Of a DNA stretch of 64,000 nt, positions 39,154-53,198 are shown in pieces. Position 1 is the first letter of the stretch. Each line of letters starts with the position of its first letter. The translations under genes were made by a program, and so were the position numbers. The DNA comes from Ectothiorhodospira sp. BSL-9. GTDB lineage: Bacteria > Pseudomonadota > Gammaproteobacteria > Ectothiorhodospirales > Ectothiorhodospiraceae. The notes beneath the pieces are model-generated. The model saw only the letters and a program-made list of their open reading frames with translations, made no database searches and was not told where the DNA came from. The stretch covers positions 3,358,001 through 3,422,000 of the forward strand of contig NZ_CP011994.1 in assembly GCF_001632845.1 (NCBI RefSeq), read 5' to 3'.

Positions 39154-40845
39154 CTAAGTCCGATGATCATGGAGGATGTTCACGTCCCGGCCGTGATGCG
39201 CGGGGGCGATGAATCCGGAACGCACCAGGAAGTCACCGAAGTGCTCGCCGGGCTCGCGGCCAGCGGCGAAACCCGCAAAGGCGGCATCCAGGTGTTCCAG
39301 TATCTCGGCCTCGCTGGCATTATCCAGCGCCAGCCGGTTGAGACGTGCCCCGTCAAAGGCCGCTCCCAGGTAAAGGTTGTAGCGGCCCGGCGCCCGGCCC
39401 ACCAGGCCAATCTCGGCCAGGTAAGGCCGGGAGCATCCGTTGGGGCAGCCGCTGATACGCACGGTGACCGGCTGCTCTTCCACCCCATGCCGGGCAGCCA
39501 TCTCCTCGATACGGCGGATCAGATCCGGCAGATAGCGCTCGGCCTCGGCCATGGCCATCCCGCACGTGGGGAGCGCCACGCAGGCCAGGGCGTTCAGACG
39601 CAGCGGCGAGGCTTTGTCATGCGCGTCCAGCCCGTAGGTGGCGATGGCCTCCTCCATCCGCGCTCGGTTTGCGGCATCCACGCCGGCCAGCACCAGGTTC
39701 TGGTTGGGCGTGACCCGCACATCGCTGACCATGTGCTCGTCGATCAGCGCGCGCAGGCCCTGGAGTTGTGTCGGGAACAGCCGGCCGGACTGGATGAAGA
39801 GGTTCATTTGCCAGGTGCCATCCACGGCCTCGGTCCAGCCATAACGGTCCCCGTTGCCGGTAAAATCAAAAGGGCGCGCAGGCTCGAGAAAGACGCGTGA
39901 GCGCCCCTCCAGTTCCCGGACCAGCCAGTCCAGCCCGCGGTCCTCGACGGTGTATTTGAAGCGCGCGTGCTTGCGGTCCTCTCGGTCGCCGAAGTCGCGC
40001 TGGATGGCGACCACCGTTTCGGCCACCTTGAGTAATTGCTCGGGTGGGACGAAACCGATCACGTCACCAAGACGCGGGAAGGTCTTGGGCTCCCCGTGGC
40101 TGCAGCCCAGCCCGCCCCCTACGGTCACGTTGAAGCCCACCAACCGCCCGCCCTCTTCCATGGCGATGAACCCCAGGTCCTGGGAGAAGATGTCCACATC
40201 GTTGACCGGTGGGATGGCAACCCCGATCTTGAACTTGCGCGGGAGATAGGTCTCCCCGTAGAGGGGTTCGGCCTCGGGCTCGCCATCGGTGACCTTCTCG
40301 CCGTCGATCCAGATCTCGCGCCAGGCTCCGGTCTTCGGGGTGAGGTGTGCACTCAGACGCTGTGACCATTGCAAGGCCTCGGCGTGGATCTGGCTGGCTT
40401 CGGGCTGGACGTGGCACATGACGTTGCGATTGACATCGCCGCAGGCCGCCAGAGAATCCATCAGCACCGCGTCGATACCGCGGATGAGGGTCTTGAGGTT
40501 TTCCTTGGCCACGCCGTGAAACTGCACGGCCTGACGGGTGGTGAGCCGGATGGTACCGTTGGCCACACGACTGGCCAGCTCGTCCAGGGCCAGCCATTGA
40601 TCCGGCTGGATCACCCCGCCGGGCACCCGCACCCGGATCATGAACTGATACGCCGGCTCCAGCCGCGCTTCCCGACGCGCGTTGCGAACGTCGCGGTCAT
40701 CCTGCTGATAGATGCCGTGGAACTTGGTGACCACGGTGTCTGAATCCGCAAGGGCGCCGGTGACCGGGTCCTGGAGCCCGTCAGCCACCGTGCCGCGCAG
40801 GTGACGGCTGTCGCGCTTGATCTTTTCCACATCGGTGCCAGACAT
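39154..40845 (-). CDS. cysI: sulfite reductase hemoprotein beta subunit
   Basis: 563-residue siroheme/4Fe-4S enzyme reducing sulfite to sulfide for cysteine synthesis. Cluster and siroheme Cys ligands are in CVALPTCGMAMAEAE and ISGCPNGCSRP near residues 425-480; RLTTRQAVQFHGV is a siroheme-binding segment. It starts 1 base after the cysJ stop, with AAGGAGG inside the cysJ end, so the two are coupled. Confidence 0.95.
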   Translation of the reverse strand: MSGTDVEKIKRDSRHLRGTVADGLQDPVTGALADSDTVVTKFHGIYQQDDRDVRNARREARLEPAYQFMIRVRVPGGVIQPDQWLALDELASRVANGTIRLTTRQAVQFHGVAKENLKTLIRGIDAVLMDSLAACGDVNRNVMCHVQPEASQIHAEALQWSQRLSAHLTPKTGAWREIWIDGEKVTDGEPEAEPLYGETYLPRKFKIGVAIPPVNDVDIFSQDLGFIAMEEGGRLVGFNVTVGGGLGCSHGEPKTFPRLGDVIGFVPPEQLLKVAETVVAIQRDFGDREDRKHARFKYTVEDRGLDWLVRELEGRSRVFLEPARPFDFTGNGDRYGWTEAVDGTWQMNLFIQSGRLFPTQLQGLRALIDEHMVSDVRVTPNQNLVLAGVDAANRARMEEAIATYGLDAHDKASPLRLNALACVALPTCGMAMAEAERYLPDLIRRIEEMAARHGVEEQPVTVRISGCPNGCSRPYLAEIGLVGRAPGRYNLYLGAAFDGARLNRLALDNASEAEILEHLDAAFAGFAAGREPGEHFGDFLVRSGFIAPAHHGRDVNILHDHRT

Positions 40846-40846
40846 T

Positions 40847-42646
40847 TCAGTACACCTCCTTCTTGTAGCGACCGGCGGACTTCATCCTGGCAAGGCGTTC
40901 CTCGGCAACCTTGGCGCTCACTCCGGCGTGTTCGGCGATCACACCCGCCAGCGCCCGGTGAACATCCCTGGCCATGCCCTGTCCGCTGCCGCAGATATAC
41001 ACGTGAGCACCCGAGTTCAGCCACTCGAAGACCTCGCGGCCCTGCTCGGCGATTCGGTGCTGCACATAAACCTTGTCGGCCTGGTCTCGGGAGAAGGCCA
41101 CCGAAAGCCGGGAAAGGGTTCCTTCGCGCAGGTGGCGAAGCCACTCCAACTGATAAAGGAAATCCGTCTGACGGTGCTGTTCGCCAAAAAAGAGCCAGTT
41201 CCTGCCACTGTGGCCCAGCGCTGCGCGATGTTCGACGAAGGCCCGGAAGGGCGCCACGCCCGTGCCAGGCCCGATCATGATGACGGGTGTCTCGCCGCTC
41301 TCAGGCAGACGGAAACTGGGGCTGGCCTCGACATATACCGGCAGGCTATCTCCCGGTCGCAGCGCCCGGGTCAGCTGCCAACTCGCAGCGCCGGCGCGTA
41401 GCCGGTCATCGATCTCGCGGCCTTCGAGCTTGACGGTCAGGTGGACCTCTTCTTCATCGACCAGCGGGCTGGAGGCGATGGAATACAGCCTGGGGGCGAT
41501 GGTGCGCAGGCAGGATACAAACTGGTCGGCATCCAGTTCGAAGGGGAATTCTTCGATCACGTCAACCACCTGACGCGTCCTGCACCAGGCAGCAAAGGCG
41601 TCACGGTCTTCCAGTAACTCAACGAGCTTCGTGACCCCACCCAGCTCGGCGTAGCGCTCCACAAAGGGCCTCGCCACCTGGGTCAGCTCCAGCCGGCTGG
41701 TCAGCCATTGGGCGAGGGGTCGGGCCTCGCCGCCATATTCGACGGCCTTGTCACCATCCAGGCCGGTGCGTTCCAGGATCTCCTCGACCAGACGGGGATC
41801 ATGGCTCGGCCATACGCCCAGGGAGTCCCCGGGCTGATAGCTGAGCCCGCTGCCTTCCAGGGAAAGGGCCAGGTGATGAACGCTCTTGGCCGAGGGCGGC
41901 ACGGTCAGCGGCGACACCTCCAGGACTTCGGCCATAAACGGGCTGCGGCGCCCGTACATCATGGGCGCGGCCACCGGGGTGGCGCTGTCACGGACCACCT
42001 GTAGATGGGAATGATTGCCCTGCACCGGTTCCAGCAGCGGTTTGACGGCCTCGAGGATCCTGGGCTGCCAGGCATCTTCGGAGGATTCGAGATCCACATC
42101 GCAGTCGACCCGCTGTAGCAAGCGGCTGGCCCCCGCCTTTTCCAGCGCTGCATCCAGATCGCGCCCCACCTGGCAGAAATCCGGATACGAGGAATCCCCC
42201 AGGGCGAAGACCGCATAGCTCAGGTCGTCAAGTTTCGGGGCCCGGTCGGAAGTCATGAGCTTGTGGAAAGCCTCAGCCTCCTCGGGTGGCTCACCCTCGC
42301 CGTGGGTGCTGATCACCAGTACCAGCAGCTTCAGCTTGGTAATCCGCCGCGGCTGGATGTCGGCCAGGCTGGCCAGGTCCACCACGAATCCCTGCGAACG
42401 CGCCTGGGCCGCCAGGCGTTCGGCCACGCCGCGCCCGTTACCGGTCTCCGTGCCGTACCAGATGGTCAGCGTCGCGGCCGGGTCGGCTTCATTGGCTGGC
42501 TGGGATTCCGCCAGCGCCTGCCCACCTGCCGAGGCGAGCCCGGCAAAGTAGCCGGACGCCCACAACAGCTCCGGCCCGTCGAGGCGGTCGACAAGGCGGT
42601 CGAGTTCAGTTTGCAGCACCTGCTGCCGTTCTGGGGATAGCGCCAT
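40847..42646 (-). CDS. cysJ: sulfite reductase flavoprotein alpha subunit
   Basis: 599-residue diflavin reductase passing NADPH electrons to CysI. FMN domain: IWYGTETGNGRGVAE (about residues 63-77) and FALGDSSYPDFCQVG. FAD/NADPH domain: LYSIASSP, IGPGTGVAPFRAF, LFFGEQHRQTDFLY, and the conserved C-terminal aromatic. First gene of cysJI. The 211-base upstream region 42647-42857 holds no gene; a CysB-type site could not be assigned with confidence. Confidence 0.95.
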   Translation of the reverse strand: MALSPERQQVLQTELDRLVDRLDGPELLWASGYFAGLASAGGQALAESQPANEADPAATLTIWYGTETGNGRGVAERLAAQARSQGFVVDLASLADIQPRRITKLKLLVLVISTHGEGEPPEEAEAFHKLMTSDRAPKLDDLSYAVFALGDSSYPDFCQVGRDLDAALEKAGASRLLQRVDCDVDLESSEDAWQPRILEAVKPLLEPVQGNHSHLQVVRDSATPVAAPMMYGRRSPFMAEVLEVSPLTVPPSAKSVHHLALSLEGSGLSYQPGDSLGVWPSHDPRLVEEILERTGLDGDKAVEYGGEARPLAQWLTSRLELTQVARPFVERYAELGGVTKLVELLEDRDAFAAWCRTRQVVDVIEEFPFELDADQFVSCLRTIAPRLYSIASSPLVDEEEVHLTVKLEGREIDDRLRAGAASWQLTRALRPGDSLPVYVEASPSFRLPESGETPVIMIGPGTGVAPFRAFVEHRAALGHSGRNWLFFGEQHRQTDFLYQLEWLRHLREGTLSRLSVAFSRDQADKVYVQHRIAEQGREVFEWLNSGAHVYICGSGQGMARDVHRALAGVIAEHAGVSAKVAEERLARMKSAGRYKKEVY

Positions 42647-42857
42647 GGTGAACCGTCACAAATTCGAATGCGTACAGTTCACGCTAGCGATGCGCTGCCA
42701 CCAAGGGAAAGATTTTTTAGTTCTAGGGTTATGCTGTTCCGAAACTCCGAACCCGGTCGCCCCGCGCCAGGCGAAACATATCCGGGCATCCCCACGGATC
42801 ACCGACCAGCCATGGCAGCAGCGAAGAATCTTTCTTGGATCGCGGAACATGCCATTA

Positions 42858-44024
42858 TCACTGGCGTAGCCGCAACGGCATACCCACCGTGAACTGCAGG
42901 TCCGGCGAATCCGCGGTTACGCCAATGCCCAGACCGAAATCCACTGTGAAATCCGGAGACATGGAGTAGGACGCGCCCACGTTGAACGACGAGGTCACCA
43001 GGGAGGATCCGGGGATGCGCGCGTCGTCAATCCGGCTACTGGCAGATAACTGCTGGGAAAATCCGAAACTGATGGACGTGTCCAGGTTCAACGCCAGAGC
43101 CAGACCCACCTGCGCACCGACGGTATTACCGCTGCGAAACCGACCCGCCTCGATGTCCACCCCCTCATTGTAAGTGTAGGACAGTCCGCCAAAGAAAACG
43201 GCCGGATCCGTCACATGCACCACGGTCAGCGAGCCGGCATAACTGTTGAAACCGCTGCCCAGGGAAAGCTGTCGACCCAGCTCCTGGTCGAAGGGGTTAT
43301 TACCGGTCGTGGTCTTCCAGCGCAGGCTGCCCAGCAGATCGGGCCACCTTTCCGAGCCCCTGATCAATTGATGAGACAAGGCAAGTTCGATATCACCCAG
43401 CCCCTGAGCGGACTGGGTGCTCTCCTCGTTTTCGGCAGTGACCACCTGACGGCGCTGCCATCCCCAGGGAATGCGCGCCTCCAGCTGCCAGTCTTCAGGC
43501 AACCCGATGCGTCCGGTGAACGTGGTCTGGGCGATATCGGTGCGGACCCGCTCATTGACAATGTCCCCGACCACCAGAACCGGCAGTATGGTGAAGCCGT
43601 CGATGACGATACGATCGCTGGAACTGCTGATGTAACTGAAGCCCAGGTCTGCTTCGAAGGTTCCAGGCGGCAGCAGCAGACCGCCACGATCGATGAGGGT
43701 TTGTTCGAACGCGGCCCGAATCAGGCGTTCCTGTTCACGACGCTCTTCCTCCGCGGCTTCCTGGACGGCCTGTTCCAGGGCCTCCTGTTGCGGATCGGGT
43801 TCCCTGATCTGTGCCGGGCCCGGCGCAGATGGATGCAGATGGGATTCCAGTTCGTCAAGACGGTCGATGAGATGCCGGATGACGTCATCACGCACGACGA
43901 TGGCCCGTCGCAGTTCCCGCAACTCCTCCTGCAATTGATCGATGCGTTCATCGGCCATGGCCATGGTGGCAGGCACACCGCTCACCGCCACGATGCATAG
44001 CCACGACATCCCCCGCATGGACAT
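42858..44024 (-). CDS. outer-membrane beta-barrel with coiled coil, FapF-like secretion pore
   Basis: 388-residue exported protein. A signal peptide ends at AMA near residue 24; residues 26-62 (ERIDQLQEELRELRR onward) and 78-108 are strongly coiled-coil-forming; the rest from about 120 is an alternating beta-barrel of the Phenol_MetA_deg type ending FTVGMPLRLRQ. FapF of Pseudomonas has the same plan: signal, coiled coil, plug, barrel, and exports Fap amyloid. The start could be ATG 44024 or 44018; AGGAG is 4 or 10 bases away. Last gene of the five-gene unit. Confidence 0.75.
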   Translation of the reverse strand: MSMRGMSWLCIVAVSGVPATMAMADERIDQLQEELRELRRAIVVRDDVIRHLIDRLDELESHLHPSAPGPAQIREPDPQQEALEQAVQEAAEEERREQERLIRAAFEQTLIDRGGLLLPPGTFEADLGFSYISSSSDRIVIDGFTILPVLVVGDIVNERVRTDIAQTTFTGRIGLPEDWQLEARIPWGWQRRQVVTAENEESTQSAQGLGDIELALSHQLIRGSERWPDLLGSLRWKTTTGNNPFDQELGRQLSLGSGFNSYAGSLTVVHVTDPAVFFGGLSYTYNEGVDIEAGRFRSGNTVGAQVGLALALNLDTSISFGFSQQLSASSRIDDARIPGSSLVTSSFNVGASYSMSPDFTVDFGLGIGVTADSPDLQFTVGMPLRLRQ

Positions 44025-44047
44025 CCCACTCCTGGTCGGAGGCACCC

Positions 44048-44755
44048 TCACGGGGTCACCGGGAGATGGCGTATGGCCGGTGGCACGGGTCCACCCGCCC
44101 TCAGCAGGCGGTGAACATAGTCCAGGTTGGGTAGTGGCGTGTTCAGCGCATTGGGAGCCAGCGGTCCTTGTCCCGGGTCCCATGGCGATTGGCCCACCTC
44201 CCGCACGAAGAACCCGATACGACTGGACCAGGCCTCGTCAAACTGTGCCAGCGACAGGGTGAGGTTGCCGAAGGCCGGATCACCAATCAGGACACGGTTT
44301 CCGGCGCGGCCCCGGAACACCACAAAATGATCCAGGTCCCGATAGCGAATGGGGAGAATCGCAGGCACCGGACTGTGTTCCAGATCCTCCAGGGTCAATT
44401 GTGCGTAGCCCTCTGCCTGATAGCCCACGGCCTCGGCGAAGCGCTTGAGATCGAGAAGGGAGAATCCGCCACGTGCCCTGACCCTCTCCGGGTCTGTGTT
44501 GGCCAGGATACTGACGGCAATCGTGGCCTCACTGAAGGGGTCGCCAAAATGGTAGGTGAGAATGGTGCTCAAGGCAGCCGATCCACAGCTGACATCCCAC
44601 CCCTGGCGCACCAATCCTGCCTCACGCAACTGCTTGAGGGGCATCACGTCGGTGGAAACGCGACCCGCTGCGGTCGGAAGTGGCGTGCCCCCATCCACCA
44701 CCGGGCTTGCTGTCGCAAGCACCGATATCAGCAGCGCGGGGGCGACGGCTTTCAT
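44048..44755 (-). CDS. exported C39-family cysteine peptidase, FapD-like
   Basis: 235-residue protein with a signal peptide (cut near residue 18-22) and a C39 peptidase domain. Gln51 and Cys57 (QGWDVSCGSAALSTIL), His143 (DHFVVFRG) and Asp159 (IGDPAFG) form the expected oxyanion and triad residues. C39 enzymes cut after double-glycine leaders; here no ABC transporter domain is attached, as in FapD. Its ATG overlaps the stop of the small cargo-like gene by 4 bases. Confidence 0.82.
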   Translation of the reverse strand: MKAVAPALLISVLATASPVVDGGTPLPTAAGRVSTDVMPLKQLREAGLVRQGWDVSCGSAALSTILTYHFGDPFSEATIAVSILANTDPERVRARGGFSLLDLKRFAEAVGYQAEGYAQLTLEDLEHSPVPAILPIRYRDLDHFVVFRGRAGNRVLIGDPAFGNLTLSLAQFDEAWSSRIGFFVREVGQSPWDPGQGPLAPNALNTPLPNLDYVHRLLRAGGPVPPAIRHLPVTP

Positions 44756-45186
44756 CTGGGGCCTCCCAGCGACGCAGGGGAAGATGCCAACTCCCTCTGG
44801 AGGTTGATTTGCTGCATCTGACCGACCACGGAGTCGATATTGACGTTCAGATTCAGCAAGACATTCACGGGTGAGTTGACCGCGTTGATGTTGATCAGCG
44901 AGGAAAGGTTCTGCTGAGCATTGTCTCCCAGTATCAGCAGGGCCTGGGGGTTGGAGCGGCCGTCCAGAAGCGCAGCCTGACCTTGAACATGGATGTGACT
45001 GCCCCGCCGGGTGGTTCTTGCTGCCTCGAACCGGGCCAGCTCCTGGGAATCCCCCATCACCGCACCGGCCACCACGCGATCCAGCCAGGCATCATCCATC
45101 AGTCGAGGCGACTGGGCATGCGCGGTTCCCGCCATCCAGAGGGTGCAAGCCAGCAGCCATGTCTTGCGAGATTGGATGGGCATCAT
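44752..45186 (-). CDS. small exported repeat protein of the Fap-like locus
   Basis: 144-residue protein with no family I recognise. Signal peptide ends at AHA (residue 24). A double-glycine-leader-like motif MDDAWLDRVVAG is at residues 30-41. Residues 87-116 hold one copy of the locus repeat (GDNAQQNLSSL, then INAVNS, then LLNLNVN), rich in Asn and Gln. The ATG overlaps the stop of the 587-residue gene by 4 bases. It could be a nucleator or chaperone equivalent of FapB/FapE; that is inference. Confidence 0.7.
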   Translation of the reverse strand: MMPIQSRKTWLLACTLWMAGTAHAQSPRLMDDAWLDRVVAGAVMGDSQELARFEAARTTRRGSHIHVQGQAALLDGRSNPQALLILGDNAQQNLSSLININAVNSPVNVLLNLNVNIDSVVGQMQQINLQRELASSPASLGGPR

Positions 45187-46946
45187 TGAAACCCCTGCAC
45201 AAAGGTGTTGCTTTGGCTCACGGCCAAGGGATTCCCTTGCGTGGCACGTACGTGGGCGGGGGTGCGCGCCACGTTGGTGGCCCCTCCCATGAGCGAGGTG
45301 GTGACGTTGGCAGCATTCAACGCTCGCAAAGTCTGCTGAGCGCCCCCGTGCACCTGAACGACATGGTAGGTCTCCACCCGGGACTGACTTCCGGACAGGG
45401 TGATCAGGTCCGCCCGGGCTCCGACCAATTCACCGCCGGTCGTCTGCTCTATCTGTTCCCTCCGGGACCACCGATCCTGCTCCCATTGATGCTCCCAGGT
45501 GTGGGTTTGCTCCTCCAGCACGCGCTCGAATGACTCCAGGCGCTCGATGGATTGGGTGCCGCAGGACTGCGCGGAGCGGGTTAGACAGAGGATGCCATCG
45601 GTCAGGTCAGCCCGCATGCCGAATTCGGTCGACCAGGGCGGACCCTGCTCACCGCCCGGGTCAAACAAGTCTCCCAGGGAGATTTCAAAGCGGGCATCGG
45701 GAAGTGACAGATCCAGTTCCAGTGACTGCAGCGGGCGACCCGGCAGCAGTTCCAGGGCTGCCGGGGTCAGTATGCCGGCGACGGGCTCCAGGTCCAGGAC
45801 AAACGATTCAGTGATGCCTGGCAGCGAGAGGCCCAGATTGAGATCAACCCCCGTCTGGGGTGTCTGCATCTCGAAACGACCACTGCCCACGGCCGCGATC
45901 CCTTGGCCCAGCTTGATATCCAGGTCCTGGAGCGGGTTGGCGCCTGCGAGGCGGATCTCGCCCACATCCAACGACGCGGTGGTGCGATTACCCACATTGA
46001 AGTCAAGGTCGGCGCGTACGCAGCCGCCCAAACATAGCTCTCCACGCACGGTGGGAAGATCTGGAGGGGGGAGGCTGATTTGCCCCAGGTTCACCACCAG
46101 ATCATCTCCCTCCCCCCGAATCGAGGCCGGCGTCACCTGAGCACCCTGGATTTGCAGACCCGAAAACTCGGCACCGATACCGAACCTTGCGGGTTCTTCT
46201 CCGGTAAACCAGTCAAATGAGACGGCGGGGAGTGTCAGCGAGGGCAGCGTGCAGGTGGGGGCACCGCACAGATCCAACCCCACCTCCCAATCACGCCCCA
46301 GGCTGTCGCCGGGTACGGCAGCGTTGTAACGGGCACGTGTGCGGACCTGGTTCATTTCCTGGTCCACGCGCGTATCCATGCGTGATTGGCGATCGCCAAT
46401 GCCTTGCCATGACTGGGCCGCTTCCCAGCGGCGGCTGTCCTGACCACTTGTGGTGGCACCAAGTTGAGCGCCGTCCGCACCCTCCTGCACAAAATGATTG
46501 GTCTGGTCCACCCGGGAGGTGGGCCCACCCACGGCCCCACCCTCAAAGACATTCAGGCCGGTGATGGTGTCAGCTCGGGAGGCGTTAACCACATTCAACC
46601 CGGTCAGGCCGGACTGGGCAGCGCCCCCTAACTGGACCTGATTCAGCGATTCCCGCTCGAACACGGTGCCTCCCGCCACCACACCAGACACGTCGCCCGG
46701 TGGCGGAGGTAATCCTGCGTCCATGGAAGCTCCGCCCTGCACGCCGGCGCGGGCCCGGTCCGGAAGGGGACGATCGGGAGGTCTGATGGCGCTCTGGCCG
46801 GGTTGCTGTACCACCATGCCCGAAGCCTGAACCCGGTCCAGGGCAAAGTCGTCCAGTGCCCTGGGGGCCGCCGCAAGGGTCGGCGTCAACGCAAGGCCCA
46901 GCGCCATCCCGATGGGCACCCCCAGTCGACCCTGGAACATGCTCAT
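45183..46946 (-). CDS. large exported repeat protein B of the Fap-like locus
   Basis: 587-residue exported protein, not recognised. Signal peptide to about residue 27 (AAA), then a leader-like motif LDDFALDRVQASG at 31-43. Two locus repeats: residues 107-133 (LTGLNVVNAS to ITGLNV) with QTNHFVQ at 148-154, and 534-559 (LRALNAANV to GGATNV) with SQSNTFVQ at 575-584. The middle (about 230-470) is predicted beta-rich, with repeated short strands of the form L-x-L-x-L and four cysteines in LCGAPTC and LCLGGC. GGGAGG is 8 bases before ATG 46946. Confidence 0.72.
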   Translation of the reverse strand: MSMFQGRLGVPIGMALGLALTPTLAAAPRALDDFALDRVQASGMVVQQPGQSAIRPPDRPLPDRARAGVQGGASMDAGLPPPPGDVSGVVAGGTVFERESLNQVQLGGAAQSGLTGLNVVNASRADTITGLNVFEGGAVGGPTSRVDQTNHFVQEGADGAQLGATTSGQDSRRWEAAQSWQGIGDRQSRMDTRVDQEMNQVRTRARYNAAVPGDSLGRDWEVGLDLCGAPTCTLPSLTLPAVSFDWFTGEEPARFGIGAEFSGLQIQGAQVTPASIRGEGDDLVVNLGQISLPPPDLPTVRGELCLGGCVRADLDFNVGNRTTASLDVGEIRLAGANPLQDLDIKLGQGIAAVGSGRFEMQTPQTGVDLNLGLSLPGITESFVLDLEPVAGILTPAALELLPGRPLQSLELDLSLPDARFEISLGDLFDPGGEQGPPWSTEFGMRADLTDGILCLTRSAQSCGTQSIERLESFERVLEEQTHTWEHQWEQDRWSRREQIEQTTGGELVGARADLITLSGSQSRVETYHVVQVHGGAQQTLRALNAANVTTSLMGGATNVARTPAHVRATQGNPLAVSQSNTFVQGFQ

Positions 46947-46967
46947 GATCCGAGCCTCCCTGTTGGT

Positions 46968-47003
46968 CAAGGGTGGCGGGACACATGCCCACCGCCACCC
47001 TTG
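46968..47003. terminator. 12-bp hairpin between the two large cargo genes
   Basis: CAAGGGTGGCGG at 46968-46979 and its exact complement at 46992-47003 with a 12-base loop. No T run follows on the minus strand, so it may be an attenuating or RNA-stabilising structure setting relative levels of proteins A and B. Confidence 0.55.
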
Positions 47004-47016
47004 TTTGACGGCGATC

Positions 47017-48228
47017 TCAGCGGCTGTGGCTGATGACGTTGGTCTGCGTCAGATTGAGGGATTGCCCCCCGCTGGCATTGAGTGCTCCGGAGCGTTGGGT
47101 GGCCACATTGACGCCGTTGGCCACGGCGCTGCCCGCAGCATTGACCACATTCATTGCCCGCACATCAGCCTGGGCATTTCCCGCCAGCACCACCAGGTAG
47201 CTGGATTCCACCGTCAGATCCGAACTGTCCACCACGATGTACTCGGCCTGGGCGTCACGCAGCACGAAGGGTGCCCGGATTCGTTCATCCAGTGCCGTGT
47301 CCCAGGAGCGCTCGCTGACCTCACTGCTCTCCTGGATGTGAGCAGTCGAGCGGTCCACCATGTCCGTGATCTCCTCTTCGAAGCGCCCCTCGGCCTGGCA
47401 GGAGCCGTTCTGGACCGCACACCCTGCCCCCTCGAATTCCACCGTCATCTCGGGCAGCCTGAGGTTGACCCTCACCTCTCCATCAAAGGAGACAACCCCG
47501 GGCAGCGAGACACCTCCGCCTGACTCGAACGTGAACTCACCGGCATCAAAGTGCACACCGAGATCACCGGCACCCGACAGACCCCGTCCCGCCTGGATCT
47601 CCTGCCCCAGCACCGTCGACTTGGCGTTCACGCGACCACTGCTCTCGTTGCTGCGCGCGAACGAATGCGTCTCCACGTTGGCGATGTTTTCAGACGAAGC
47701 CAGTTCTGAAGACTCGAAACTGGAGCCGCTGTCCGACGTTACCCGGTCGATATTGGCCTCGATTCGCTCGTAGGATGGCACTGAGGCCACGCGGCGCTGT
47801 TCCTGGACGATGTCGTTGATCTGGGCCACGTTGAAGTGCGCACCGTCCATGATGTCGGAGGTGGTCTCGGCCCGCCCGTCAAAGACATTGATGCCGTTGG
47901 CAATGGTGCTCTCGGCTCCTGTGACCAGGTTCATCGCCCGGGCGTTGGCCTGAGCGCCCTCAAGTAACTCAACATGACCTGTTGAGTTCAGCGTCGCCGA
48001 GGAGTCGTTTCCGACGATGGCCCCTCCGCTGGCACTGAGGGGGTGACCAGAGGCAACCCCTGCCGTAATGTTATCCATCTCTTCCAGGTTCAGTTGGGAA
48101 GGTCCGGATTGGGAAGCCACAACCGGTGCGGTTGCTCCGACCAGCGCCAGCGTCACCGCCACCGGGAGCACCCGGGGTGCGTGGAGAAAAAAACGTTGCT
48201 TGCTCAAGCCCTCAGTTCTGCGCCTCAT
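47017..48228 (-). CDS. large exported repeat protein A of the Fap-like locus
   Basis: 403-residue exported protein, not recognised. Signal peptide to about residue 39 (VVA-S). Leader-like motif LNLEEMDNITAG at 46-57, directly after it. Two locus repeats: 91-115 (ARAMNLV to IANGINV) with NVAQINDIV at 133-141, and 350-375 (VRAMNVVNA to VANGVNV) with NLTQTNVIS at 392-400. The centre is Ser/Glu-rich with FDGEVRVNLRLPEMTVEFEG. First gene of the unit; GGGAGG 7 bases before the ATG. Confidence 0.72.
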   Translation of the reverse strand: MRRRTEGLSKQRFFLHAPRVLPVAVTLALVGATAPVVASQSGPSQLNLEEMDNITAGVASGHPLSASGGAIVGNDSSATLNSTGHVELLEGAQANARAMNLVTGAESTIANGINVFDGRAETTSDIMDGAHFNVAQINDIVQEQRRVASVPSYERIEANIDRVTSDSGSSFESSELASSENIANVETHSFARSNESSGRVNAKSTVLGQEIQAGRGLSGAGDLGVHFDAGEFTFESGGGVSLPGVVSFDGEVRVNLRLPEMTVEFEGAGCAVQNGSCQAEGRFEEEITDMVDRSTAHIQESSEVSERSWDTALDERIRAPFVLRDAQAEYIVVDSSDLTVESSYLVVLAGNAQADVRAMNVVNAAGSAVANGVNVATQRSGALNASGGQSLNLTQTNVISHSR

Positions 48229-48273
48229 AACCCACCCTCCCGTCGCCAGAATTCAACATAACGCGTCAAACGG

Positions 48274-48301
48274 AAGATAGCAGAGTATTGATATAACGCA
48301 A
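48274..48301 (-). promoter_or_regulatory. possible sigma-70 promoter of the Fap-like operon
   Basis: On the minus strand TTGCGT-N16-TATCTT lies 46-73 bases upstream of protein A. It is a moderate match to the -35/-10 consensus. No sigma-54 element was found there. Confidence 0.35.
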
Positions 48302-48796
48302 TGAAATGCGATCGCGCCTTTCGGCGCCTGGGTCATCGCGGTGAGTACAGCGCAGCTTTGCCCAAGGAGTGAGGGCTGGCCAGGTCAACCTTTTTCTCCA
48401 ATGGCGATACAACGCAGACCTCGGCCGGCACGATACCCTGCTCGAGCAGCTCCGATGCCGGTCGAGCATAGTAGGCGCTGAGCAAATCCAGGTTCGCATA
48501 TACGAACTCGGACCGATCCCTGGGAAAGGGGCGGGTGCTGATGCTCCCGAGGTGTGCCAGGTTGACTGCGCCACCGTGAAACGAACCACTGCGCCATTGG
48601 ATATCCGTTTGCCCTTCCGGAGGCACGGACTCCAGCACCAGCAAATGGGGATAGGCGCGTTTGGGGGGATGAGGATGCGCCCGGGGCGCGGGATAAGAAA
48701 TGATGTCCAGCAGCCGGTAGGGCTGACCTTCCTTGCGGAAGGCCCCATTGAAGGACACAAAAGACACATACAGACTTTGGCCGATCCAGGATCTTA

Positions 48797-49709
48797 GGTT
48801 CTGTCTGAAAAGTGATTTTGCTAAGTTTGTACCATGATGAATCTGTACAGGAGGACTCATGGCAGGGCGGTACGAGCTTTCCGATGCAGAGTGGGAGCTG
48901 GTCAAGGATATCGTATCGACACCACAGCGCATGGGGCGTCCCCGGCGTGATGATCGACAGATGCTCAATGGTATCTTCTGGATTCTGTGCACTGGCGCCA
49001 AGTGGCGTGATCTGCCGGAACGATTTGGTCCATGGAAGACTGTGTATGACCGATTCCGGACTTGGCGGGATGAGGGGACTTTCGAGCTGGTCCTGGAGCG
49101 CCTGCATTTACGGCTTCGCGAGGACGGCTTGATGGATCTGGAGACCTGGATGCTGGATTCGACATCGACCCGCGCTACTCGAGCCGCCTCTGGAGGCGGT
49201 AAAAAGGGGGGTCTGAAGAACCCGTAGACCATGCCCTGGGGCGCAGTCGAGGCGGCCTGACCACCAAGATCCACCTGGTGTGCGACGGCCGTGGGCACCC
49301 GCTGGCGTTCGAGTTGTCGCCGGGTCAGCATGCGGACTCCCGATGGTTCACGACGGTGATGGAACGTGTTCATTTGCCCGGACCTGTGGGTCGCCCAGTA
49401 AAACGCTGTGATCACATCGTGGCCGACAAGGGTTATGACAGTGACGCGCTCCGACGATACTGTGATCGCTACGGCATGAAACCAGTGATTGCCAGCCGGA
49501 AGATGCACAGGCGACCGCGTCGTGGCCGGAGTCGGGGCTTCGACAAGGCACGCTACCGGCAACGGAACATTGTGGAGCGCCTTTTTGGCTGGATGAAGGA
49601 AATGCGACGTATAGGCACTCGATACGACAAGCTTGCCAAGAGCTTTCGAGCCATGGTTTGTCTCGCATGTGTTGTTCGTTGCTTCCGATCATACTTTTCA
49701 GACAGAACC
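48797..49709 (+). mobile_element. IS5-family (IS427-like) insertion sequence
   Basis: 913-bp element bounded by 17-bp perfect inverted repeats GGTTCTGTCTGAAAAGT, with TA duplicated on both sides (48795-48796 and 49710-49711). TA duplication and a two-frame transposase are typical of the IS427 subgroup of IS5. Confidence 0.92.
48859..49227 (+). CDS. IS5-family transposase, frame A
   Basis: 122-residue N-terminal half with the DUF4096-type segment YELSDAEWELVKDIV, WRDLPERFGPW and the first catalytic Asp in WMLDSTSTR. A slippery heptamer G-GGG-GGT at 49206-49212 is in the right phase for a -1 frameshift; the shifted frame continues SEEPVDHALGRSRGGL into frame B. The frame-A stop is 13 bases downstream. 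Confidence 0.9.
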   Translation: MAGRYELSDAEWELVKDIVSTPQRMGRPRRDDRQMLNGIFWILCTGAKWRDLPERFGPWKTVYDRFRTWRDEGTFELVLERLHLRLREDGLMDLETWMLDSTSTRATRAASGGGKKGGLKNP

Positions 49710-50549: not shown

Positions 50550-53198
50550 ATGACAGCATCCGATATCAACGCGTTGCTCGGGTCCCGCGAATTACCAGGA
50601 GCCCGGGAAGCGCTGTTGGAGATGACTCGCGATGGATCCCGCAGCTGGCGGCGTGAAGAGTTGCTGGACATGGCTGGCAGGCTGTCGGCAGGTCTGACCG
50701 CCGCCGGCCTGAAGACCGGTGACCGGGTGGCCCTGATGGCACCCAATAGCGCCCATTGGGTAGCGGTGGCATTGGGTGTGATGCGGGCGGGGGGCGTACT
50801 CGTCCCCCTGGACACTCAGATGCCGGGCGAGGACCTGGCCCATGCCCTCAACGACTGCCGGCCAGGCACGGTCCTGACTACTGACAAGCTGCTTTCCCGT
50901 TTGCCAAAACACATTGAGGCCGACGTGTGGCTGCTGGACAATGACACCGCCGATGAGCGTTCCTGGCGGAACCTCGTGGCCGACAGTTCCGGGCCGGCCC
51001 GGGCAAGCAGCAAGGACATGGCGGCCATCTTTTACACCTCCGGCACCACCGGGCCACCCAAGGGGGTACCCCTTTCCCATTACAACCTGGCCACCAACGT
51101 CCAGGCCCTGTGCGACCAGTCCCTGGCCGACGATCGGGATCGGGTACTGGTCCCCCTACCCTTTCATCATGTCTATCCCTTTACTGTGGGGATTCTCACC
51201 CCCCTCACCCTGGGGGCACCGCTGATCGTTCCGTATTCACTGGTAGGGCCGCAAATCGTCCGTGCCCTGCGCGACGGTGAAGCCACGGTGATGCTGGGTG
51301 TGCCCAGGCTCTACGAGGCCATCTGGACTGCTCTGGAACAACGGGTGACCGGGCGCGGGCGCACGGCTGCCCGACTCTTTCACGGCATGCTGCAGGTTTC
51401 CATGATGGCCCGCCGAGGGCCGGGATGGCGTCTGGGGCGGCGCCTGTTTGCGGGCCTGCATCGACGCATGGCACCGCGGCTGCGCCTGGTGGTTGCTGGC
51501 GGAGCGGCGCTGGATCCGGGGCTCGGGCGCCGCCTGCAGGGGCTGGGCTGGGAGGTGGCCACAGGTTACGGGCTGAGCGAGACGGCGCCGATCCTCACCT
51601 ACAACCCGCCGGATAGGGTTCGCCTGGAGAGCGCCGGGCTGCCACTGCCCGGGGTCGAACTGGCCATCGATGGCCAGGAGAATACCGGCGAGGTGATGGC
51701 CCGTGGGCCGAATGTGTTTGCCGGTTATCTCAACCTGCCCGAGAAGAGTCGGGAAGTGCTGGATGATGATGGATGGTTCCGCACCGGTGACACCGGCTGG
51801 ATCGACGAAGACGGTTTTCTCCATCTGGGAGGCCGCACCTCGGCCATGATCCTGCTTTCCGGAGGCGAGAACGTGGATCCTGAAAAGGTGGAAAAACAGC
51901 TGGAGAAAGCCTCAGGGATCCGTGAAGCAGGGGTGCTGGCCCATGACGACCGCCTGGCAGCGGTGGTGGTGCCCGAGCCGCAACTCTTGCGCGAAGTCGA
52001 GGGGGATGAACTCAGCAAGCGCCTCAAGAGCGCCATGGAGAAGGCCACGCAGGATCTACCCACTCACCACCGCCCTGGCACATTGAAGGTGAGCCTTGAC
52101 CCCTTGCCCCGCACACGGCTGGGCAAGCTGCGTCGCCACAAGCTGGAAGAACGCTTCGAGGCCCTGGGTGAGGGTGCTGCCAGCAAGGGGGAGGCCAAAC
52201 CGATGGATCCGGAGGCCATGGCCCCGGAGGACCAGCAGTTGCTGTCGGATCCCACCGTGGAGCAGACCTGGCAGTATCTGGCCGAGCGCTTCCATGACCG
52301 GCGGCTCACGCCGGACAGCGGCCTGTACCAGGACCTGGGGCTGGACTCCCTGGCCTGGGTGGATTTAACCCTCACGCTGCGCGACCGCATCGGCGTGGAA
52401 ACGGAGGATGAAGCCATCTCACGGGTGCAGAGCGTGCGGGACCTGCTGCGCGAGGTGGCTGCGGCTGGCGAAGCCAAGGAGGGTGGTGACGAGCGGGATC
52501 TGCAGACCGCCCTGAAAGACCCCGAGCGACACCTGGACGACGCGGCGCGGCGCTGGCTGGCACCGCGAGGATCCGTACGCCAGTTCATCGGCCTGGTGCT
52601 GCTGGGCATCACCCGGCTGGGGGTCCGGCTCCTGTATCGTCTGGAGGTGCAGGGGCACATCCCCCGCGAAGGCGGCCCTTACGTACTGGCCCCGCGACAC
52701 CTGAGTGCCCTTGATCCGCTGGTGCTGACCCGGGTTCTCACCTGGCGGCAGTTGCGCACCCTGTACTGGGCGGGATGGACCGGGCTGATGTTCTCCAGTC
52801 GCCTCGCCCGGGCCTTTAGTCGTATCGTCGGGATCCTGCCCATCGACCCGGGGAGATCCCCGCGGCGCAGCCTGGCATTGGCGGTCACCTGTCTTGAGCG
52901 CGGACACAGCCTGGTGTGGTTTCCGGAAGGACGCCGTTCCCCGGATGGCCAGTTGCAACCCTTCCGGCCCGGTATCGGCAGTCTGCTGCTGGCCAGGCCG
53001 TCACCCGTAATTCCCGTGCACATCGCGGGTACCGGGAAGGCCCTGCCGCCGGGGCGGCGCTGGCCCCGGCCAGGACGGGTGCGCATCATCATGGGTGAGC
53101 CGCTGGATCCGGGCACCCTGGGCAGCGATCCCCGGGAGATTGCCCAGCGCCTTCAGGATGCGGTGGCGGCTCTGGGGGAAGCCGACAACACGACTTGA
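50550..53198 (+). CDS. acyl-CoA ligase / ACP / PlsC acyltransferase fusion
   Basis: 882-residue three-domain protein. Residues 1-540: AMP-forming ligase with IFYTSGTTGPPKGVP, GYGLSETAPILTYN and WFRTGDTGWIDEDGF. About 570-650: acyl carrier domain with phosphopantetheine Ser in GLDSLAWVDL. About 690-882: glycerophosphate acyltransferase domain with HLSALD (HX4D) and FPEGRRSPDGQLQPFRPG. It could activate a fatty acid, load it on its own carrier and transfer it to a lysolipid, as Aas does. GGAGG is 9 bases before the ATG. A roughly 25-residue basic, hydrophobic stretch precedes PlsC. Confidence 0.88.
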   Translation: MTASDINALLGSRELPGAREALLEMTRDGSRSWRREELLDMAGRLSAGLTAAGLKTGDRVALMAPNSAHWVAVALGVMRAGGVLVPLDTQMPGEDLAHALNDCRPGTVLTTDKLLSRLPKHIEADVWLLDNDTADERSWRNLVADSSGPARASSKDMAAIFYTSGTTGPPKGVPLSHYNLATNVQALCDQSLADDRDRVLVPLPFHHVYPFTVGILTPLTLGAPLIVPYSLVGPQIVRALRDGEATVMLGVPRLYEAIWTALEQRVTGRGRTAARLFHGMLQVSMMARRGPGWRLGRRLFAGLHRRMAPRLRLVVAGGAALDPGLGRRLQGLGWEVATGYGLSETAPILTYNPPDRVRLESAGLPLPGVELAIDGQENTGEVMARGPNVFAGYLNLPEKSREVLDDDGWFRTGDTGWIDEDGFLHLGGRTSAMILLSGGENVDPEKVEKQLEKASGIREAGVLAHDDRLAAVVVPEPQLLREVEGDELSKRLKSAMEKATQDLPTHHRPGTLKVSLDPLPRTRLGKLRRHKLEERFEALGEGAASKGEAKPMDPEAMAPEDQQLLSDPTVEQTWQYLAERFHDRRLTPDSGLYQDLGLDSLAWVDLTLTLRDRIGVETEDEAISRVQSVRDLLREVAAAGEAKEGGDERDLQTALKDPERHLDDAARRWLAPRGSVRQFIGLVLLGITRLGVRLLYRLEVQGHIPREGGPYVLAPRHLSALDPLVLTRVLTWRQLRTLYWAGWTGLMFSSRLARAFSRIVGILPIDPGRSPRRSLALAVTCLERGHSLVWFPEGRRSPDGQLQPFRPGIGSLLLARPSPVIPVHIAGTGKALPPGRRWPRPGRVRIIMGEPLDPGTLGSDPREIAQRLQDAVAALGEADNTT

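Follow-up and report, generated by a model that had tools for sequence, protein, structure and literature searches.

In the purple bacterium Ectothiorhodospira sp. BSL-9, a window of 64,000 nucleotides (positions 3358001-3422000 of contig NZ_CP011994.1, in a genome of 3.55 Mb) holds a five-gene operon which, judged from gene trees, is a real sister lineage of the functional amyloid system Fap of Pseudomonas. Its five open reading frames (ORFs) run head to tail on the minus strand in the order A-B-C-D-F, and encode three exported cargo proteins (A, B and C), an exported C39 peptidase (D) and a FapF-like outer-membrane barrel (F) (Table 1). All three cargoes carry, behind a hydrophobic export signal, a leader with the spacing read by C39 peptidases, and export by way of leader, peptidase and barrel is the likely function of the gene set. 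A first-pass annotation made from the letters alone had described five packed minus-strand genes with 4-base overlaps, and the ORF check bears out both the coordinates and the overlaps: B/C and C/D share 4 bases, and the GTG start of F would likewise overlap the stop of D by 4 bases. The longest frame of F spans 42858-44183, starts at GTG 44051 or ATG 44024 being likelier, and an alternative ATG lies a few codons inside the TTG start of B. That annotation stands in part; the leader motif, the cysteine pairs of A and B and a second FapF/C39 locus in the same genome were absent from it.

The leader has the form L-x4-[L/M]-D-x-[V/I]-T-A-[G/A/S], and of 62 A/B/C-type ORFs, 56 have the pattern behind the export signal; position -2 is A or G in 55 of these and P in one. 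This count covers every annotated ORF of these types, with the near-duplicate loci L063, L065 and L077 set aside and with L087 only weakly A-like (loci are given as L numbers, genomes as G numbers). Of the six ORFs without it, four are pieces that have lost their N-terminus and lie close to the start of a contig; the other two are the halves of a split A gene in L060, and the first half begins with the motif and has no signal. That gene (L060:88-1199; also L077) appears to be divided into two frames, by either a real frameshift or an assembly error. A leader table was drawn up from 46 A/B/C proteins, 5 of 6 FapE proteins, and 9 of 12 E2 and 11 C2 proteins of a second Fap-like family, using a pattern which also allowed Pro at -2; a full recount added the missing three E2 and one FapE, read by eye. 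In the 45 A/B/C leaders tabulated, -12 is L, M or I, -7 is L or M (45/45), -4 is V, I or M (45/45), -2 is A in 44 and P in one, and -1 is G, A or S. The hydrophobic spacing at -12, -7 and -4 is exactly that read by C39 peptidases in double-glycine leaders, as in the solved leader complex of LahT, where recognition runs through these three positions; the consensus for ComA is Leu(-12)-x3-Glu(-8)-Leu(-7), and the usual C39 leader ends in GG, GA or GS (PMC6363468).

Such leaders are concentrated beside the peptidase genes. They occur in 32 of 54 exported ORFs lying no more than 4 kb upstream of a C39 gene and in 8 of 190 other exported ORFs of the same loci (Fisher p 2e-18), an enrichment of ~14-fold, which counts as a confirmation and not as a blind test because the motif had been seen before the pattern was written. 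Shuffled sequences matched at rates of 3.6% and 4.1%. Four of the 8 control matches are themselves leader-type proteins of such systems elsewhere in the locus, and some of the 54 upstream ORFs look spurious or belong to the second family. Further to that, C, D and F recur in the same order in 25 of 43 loci, so that the gene set is more than a chance assembly. The idea that these are unrelated neighbouring ORFs with ordinary signal peptides, for which nothing was found, has against it both this enrichment and a gene order conserved across phyla, and we give it practically no credence.

Table 1. Positions within the window of the operon's genes, leader motifs and repeats
Feature	Position	Strand	Description
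Cargo A	47017..48228	-	403 aa; export signal, C39-type leader, repeat 1, middle region with Cys pair, repeat 2
Cargo B	45183..46970	-	595 aa from TTG; homologous to A at both ends
Small cargo C	44752..45186	-	144 aa; one repeat-like unit
D, C39 peptidase	44048..44755	-	235 aa; signal-like N-terminus, no ABC transporter part, Gln51/Cys57/His143/Asp159
F, FapF-like barrel	42858..44051 (GTG start; or ATG 44024)	-	Export signal, coiled-coil-like region, conserved segment before strand 1, outer-membrane barrel
Leader motif of A, LNLEEMDNITAG	48058..48093	-	Residues 46-57; cleavage predicted after motif; LahT-like spacing
Leader motif of B, LDDFALDRVQAS	46821..46856	-	Behind hydrophobic export signal
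Leader motif of C, MDDAWLDRVVAG	45064..45099	-	Behind hydrophobic export signal
Repeat 1 of A	47791..48027	-	Residues 68-146; hhalign match to repeat 2
Repeat 2 of A	47020..47259	-	Residues 324-403; C-terminal HSR invariant in nine aligned A proteins

The leader thereby offers a candidate job for D. This protein matches Pfam Peptidase_C39 (3.3e-17), and its best NCBIfam matches are FilB (2.7e-33; 115.5 bits, cut-off 475) and FapD (9.2e-27; 93.8 bits, cut-off 330), so that the kinship with FapD for which the first-pass annotation had proposed a profile search is borne out, alongside one with FilB. The best-scoring solved relative is LahT150 (6mpz, 2.2e-6), to which D aligns, and the four residues which the first-pass annotation had listed for D, Gln51, Cys57, His143 and Asp159, are invariant among six C39 relatives. 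D is not a member of the FapD family by score, and in the D tree the Fap clade is separate from it; the FapD cut-off of 330 is nevertheless too strict to serve as a sole test, as FapD of the canonical locus L039 itself scores 280.7.

The barrel behaves similarly. F matches the NCBIfam FapF model over residues 61-436 with 1.6e-40 and 139 bits (equivalog cut-off 700), FilC with 5.7e-16 and 58.8 bits (cut-off 630) and the solved FapF structure (5o65) with 1.3e-23. F is closer to FapF than to an ordinary Phenol_MetA_deg or COG4313 transporter, a kinship with which was one part of what would have refuted the earlier reading; that family is matched with only 33 bits (6.6e-8). F also lies outside the Fap clade, and 0 of 369 genomes of the class pass the FapF cut-off of 700, canonical loci included. 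As the canonical loci miss the FapF and FapD cut-offs too, bit scores prove little by themselves and trees are the better test. At the position of the FapF plug, just before strand 1, nearly all 26 rows of the window's type have, read by eye from the alignment, a conserved segment peculiar to them which resembles x(F/L)xxxLxxRGGLLLPPG. The barrel PTG motif, noted for FapF in a 2018 review (PMC6173800), is absent in 26/26 of these rows and kept in 6/6 canonical Fap rows and 2/16 of the second family.

Trees were built from 65 rows for D and 63 for F, with L063, L065, L077, L093 and L107 dropped. Six canonical Fap rows form a clade of their own (99/96 in the D tree, 98/95 in the F tree), as does the second Fap-like family (100/98 for D, 100/100 for F), with five and four unclassified rows, respectively, inside it. 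The window groups with the A-C-D-F loci on a side split off at 99/99 in the F tree and 92/86 in the D tree. Because D and F both fall outside the Fap clade, we regard the operon as a sister system and not as Fap. The same side also holds rows with other cargoes (L062, L087, L088, L092, L094 and L096-L101), and the window-type label, which was given to L062 as well although this locus has small cargoes only, needs three changes on the D tree and two on the F tree; the type is therefore strongly clustered without being one exclusive clade.

A FapF search of the 369 genomes found matches in 39 at E up to 1e-10, and 27 stretches were fetched, which included the neighbourhoods of most of these matches, the weakest left aside. 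Loci of the window's type turned up there in G001, in G199 and in the genome of the window itself, and also, with small cargoes, in G217. G001 is the one other genome of the genus with the locus, and D of Ectothiorhodospira haloalkaliphila ATCC 51935 (L065) is 100% identical to that of the window. The 43 loci come from a peptidase scan of named genomes; a clear F is present in 39, and three of the other four end at a contig edge just after D. Of the 25 loci with C-D-F in order, an A-type gene or a piece of one is present in 23 and a B-type one in 11, A and B being on the other strand in L068. They belong to Pseudomonadota, Thermodesulfobacteriota, Myxococcota and Acidobacteriota, with hosts in Ectothiorhodospira, Marinobacter, Desulfobulbaceae, Geobacteraceae, Edaphobacter and Granulicella and in a record filed under Myxococcota. 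Since cargo A occurs in only 2 of 47 genomes of the order, both of one genus, and the operon is also found in Marinobacter and in Acidobacteriota, the role in sulfur-particle attachment suggested earlier is unsupported. FapD and FapF homologues side by side have been reported from five further phyla in the 2018 review, in a section which names no cargo (PMC6173800).

The three cargoes are mutually homologous (hhalign B-A 2.4e-32, C-A 2.1e-8, C-B 6.6e-10) and have in common a repeat of ~75 residues, in agreement with the initial description of two large repeat proteins and a small related one. In A, two such repeats flank a variable middle (repeat 1 against repeat 2, E 2.6e-16) which contains two invariant cysteines; B also has two invariant cysteines. 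Long low-complexity linkers rich in Ser, Ala and Asn separate the two repeats in A proteins of Acidobacteriota. No Pfam or NCBIfam family was found above cut-off for A, no NCBIfam model matched A, B or C, a PHROGs search gave nothing for any of them, and the profile of A matched no solved structure. Could this still be a true but diverged Fap operon, with A as FapC, B as FapB and C as FapA or FapE? The FapF and FapD profiles do match, and to the eye the repeats have a loose Ala/Asn pattern in common with FapC. Against this, hhalign of A with FapC gives a probability of 1.3 and E 0.04 at best, and the scores for B-FapC, C-FapC, A-FapB and C-FapB are similarly poor, with only four sequences in each of the FapB and FapC alignments. 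The ~39-residue FapB/FapC repeats (gasGN..GN..aaG..NqQN) have no NCBIfam match in the cargoes, while the FapC model does pass on L039; nor was there a FapA or FapE match among A, B and C, with a FapE model that finds canonical FapE in 5/5 cases and a FapA model that has no working control. Together with a different gene order and a D and F outside the well-supported Fap clade, this makes a diverged Fap very unlikely, and the original remark that the cargo is unlike FapB and FapC agrees with what NCBIfam and hhalign failed to detect. C and A were also compared with the C2 proteins of the second family, and no homology was found (C-C2 E 0.039, A-C2 0.043).

Leader-like motifs extend to Fap itself. 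FapE of the canonical loci carries LSDEELGGLRGR, LSDPELAQMRGR, LTDEEMGDMRGR, LSESRLSNIRGK and VGDDVLAGMRGR, and in L044 LTSAGLAGIRGK; all six, five of them identified by NCBIfam, keep the -12, -7 and -4 positions, with G at -2 and R or K at -1. In the second family, 12 of 12 E2 proteins end the motif in RGG. The hydrophobic spacing is preserved in 11; the exception is the E2 protein from the genome of the window, which reads HELAEQRGG with Q at -4. Leader endings go with the clade of the peptidase: 0/56 leaders of the window's type have R at -3, whereas R-G-G is seen in 12/12 E2 and R-G-R/K in 6/6 FapE. Two near-identical Sphingomonas loci whose peptidase falls in the second clade also have RGG. 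This argument is limited by the shared descent of cargoes inside each clade, but T-A-G, A-A-G or T-G-G endings are also found, on the side of the trees that holds the window, in small proteins for which no similarity to A, B or C was noticed (L094, L100 and L062, the last with weak similarity in one protein). FapD is periplasmic and its active cysteine is required for secretion, FapE is reported as the only protein with complete N-terminal processing, and the authors call the target of FapD unclear, stating that no canonical C39 sequence is present (PMC5557850). The leader of FapE may thus be a concrete candidate for the substrate of FapD.

We consider it probable, from sequence comparison, that the operon is a Fap-sister secretion system working as follows. 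A, B and C would reach the periplasm through Sec, to judge from their hydrophobic N-termini, and removal of the signal peptide would leave a new N-terminus with a leader of ~15-30 residues ending in the motif. Periplasmic D would then bind the leader by its hydrophobic residues at -12, -7 and -4 and cut after A-G, by analogy with the solved LahT complex. The leader probably blocks assembly of the cargo, or marks it for F, until D cuts. By homology, the mature cargo would exit through F acting as a FapF-like trimeric barrel. Outside, the 75-residue repeats of A and B may build up a surface fibre or coat rich in beta structure, in which C would serve as a minor subunit or as a starter; this is the weakest step.

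It is improbable, although worth weighing, that the motif is instead a tag for docking to a chaperone or pore, with D not its protease and acting on F or as a chaperone. Some C39 subsets are chaperones which do not cut (PMC6173800), and possible processing of the linker of FapF has been raised too (PMC5557850). On the other side, D keeps the full catalytic set, FapD C38A abolishes secretion (PMC5557850), the spacing fits what a protease of this kind recognises, and leader endings go with the clade of the protease.

A more serious question for the proposed secretion system is what it delivers. The same export route could release soluble effectors or non-fibrous surface proteins, as in the nap island of Neisseria, where the C39 peptidase NapP and the FapF homologue NapF are proposed to process small GG peptides in the periplasm and release them (PMC11798529), so that, where small peptides are concerned, the principle of sending leader-tagged cargo out through a FapF-type pore is already published. 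On the window's side of the trees, too, C39 genes stand beside leader-tagged proteins of ~86-175 aa, so that possession of the machine does not imply amyloid. A Caulobacteraceae protein of 372 aa and of another kind has the same leader directly before the C39 gene (L087:6772-7890, L088:6753-7871). However, A and B are repeat proteins of 400-600 aa, unlike the mature Nap peptides of 16-36 aa, and the Ser/Ala/Asn-rich linkers of acidobacterial A recall the variable linkers of FapC, whose stacked repeats form a Greek-key beta-solenoid (PMC12392863). The likeness to the stacked, variably linked repeats of FapC is an analogy and not a result. Fibre formation is plausible; non-fibrous products are clearly less probable than the secretion system outlined above.

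Several observations weigh against that proposal. The pattern was fixed after the motif had been seen, though its spacing is the one published for LahT; hydrophobicity, and not a trained predictor, served to recognise export signals; and the leaders of A, B and C do not count as independent, these proteins being homologous. Gly at -2, as in a GG, GA or GS end, is absent from the 45 tabulated leaders, and the Gly-Arg/Lys end of FapE also lies outside that list. In eight of the 43 loci no such leader was seen upstream of D (L095-L098, L102, L103, L106 and L107), although a contig end truncates some of these loci. Neither FapC nor R2, the bulk repeat cargo, has the leader motif in the sequences read, C2 proteins of the second family fit the pattern in only 1 of 11 cases, and the E2 motif of L048 stands hundreds of residues into the protein, far from the N-terminus and not just behind a signal. 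Profile matches of C and B to FapE (7e-4, probability 26%, and 2.9e-4, 40%) are weak and span the signal and leader only; the C-FapC, C-FapB and B-FapC comparisons, signals included, give 0.31-0.51. AlphaFold2 models of A (mean pLDDT 36.8, 9 sequences) and B (39.1, 11 sequences) are unusable.

Like Pseudomonas fapABCDEF, the system combines within one operon a FapF-like barrel, an exported C39 peptidase and repeat cargoes that are exported too, and a leader-like motif is also present in FapE; it differs in its gene order, in the absence of detectable FapB/FapC repeats and of PTG, in having a leader on all three cargoes and in its separate clade. D and F also resemble FilB and FilC of the Acinetobacter Fil system (peptidase and barrel, termed 'putative pilus system' in NCBIfam), FilB being the best match of D, yet both score far below the cut-offs and do not qualify as members; L061, which we read as Fil-like, has other cargoes and a further gene read as a FadL-like membrane protein. 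A full-text literature search aimed at Fil turned up no paper. With the nap island the operon has in common a C39 peptidase, a FapF-type pore and leader-tagged cargo, but Nap cargo consists of cationic peptides (PMC11798529), and no small cationic GG peptides of that type were found as cargo here, where the three cargoes measure 144-595 aa and their leaders end in A-G or A-S. The terms 'signal peptide' and 'Sec' do not occur in the main text of the nap paper (PMC11798529). Finally, D has the C39 fold, catalytic residues and leader recognition spacing of the peptidase-containing ABC exporters LahT, PCAT1 and ComA, and differs from them in its lack of an ABC transporter part and its signal-like N-terminus, with a leader which stands behind an export signal and has Ala at -2. 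A leader on large Fap-like repeat cargo, the conserved operon and clade-matched endings were not found in print in a full-text search that excluded bioRxiv and most subscription journals.

In the second Fap-like locus of the same genome (L003, G000:C1:489725-495577), a regulator frame read as sigma-54-type and a FapF-like barrel are accompanied, on the other strand, by genes for a DSGNDNS-type repeat protein of 506 aa, for two small proteins and for a C39 peptidase; further genomes of the class have loci of this kind. Unlike at L003, no sigma-54-type regulator frame was noticed beside the A-B-C-D-F operon. Between 42600 and 48900, no sigma-70-like promoter was found (0.9 expected) and terminators numbered 4, against 3.9 in shuffles. 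A loose sigma-54 pattern was sought in nine upstream stretches from eight loci; the only matches, one in the window and one in the closely related L063, are of poor form and lie far upstream.

Upstream of A, an IS5-type element (48798-49709; two transposase frames, a 3-base duplication, TAG, at its ends) interrupts a 185-codon frame and is absent from the same site in E. haloalkaliphila. The block 42837-48797 is 97% identical to that species, against 88-93% in the aligned flanks, and fourfold sites are 0.91-0.99 identical inside it against 0.80 in the one flanking gene tested; identity being higher inside than in the flanks at fourfold sites as well, this suggests a recent exchange of the block. 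Sulfite reductase and flavoprotein genes (39154-42646) adjoin the operon and are missing from this place in E. haloalkaliphila. Elsewhere in the window, 50550-53198 encodes one 882-aa protein fusing AMP-ligase, carrier-protein and acyltransferase domains.

We lean, by a modest degree, towards a general route of Sec, leader, C39 peptidase and FapF-type barrel in at least four phyla, in which a periplasmic leader with double-glycine spacing and clade-matched ends would be the entry code for cargo ranging from ~90 residues to 60 kDa, and in which the FapE leader would be the substrate of FapD. The leader yields a prediction at the level of single residues, which can be tested by point mutants. 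It also provides a handle for searches: in places where no Fap repeat is found, uncharacterised cargo, possibly surface fibres or secreted peptides, could be sought among proteins encoded beside a C39 gene in which L-x4-L-x2-V-x-A-G comes after an export signal.

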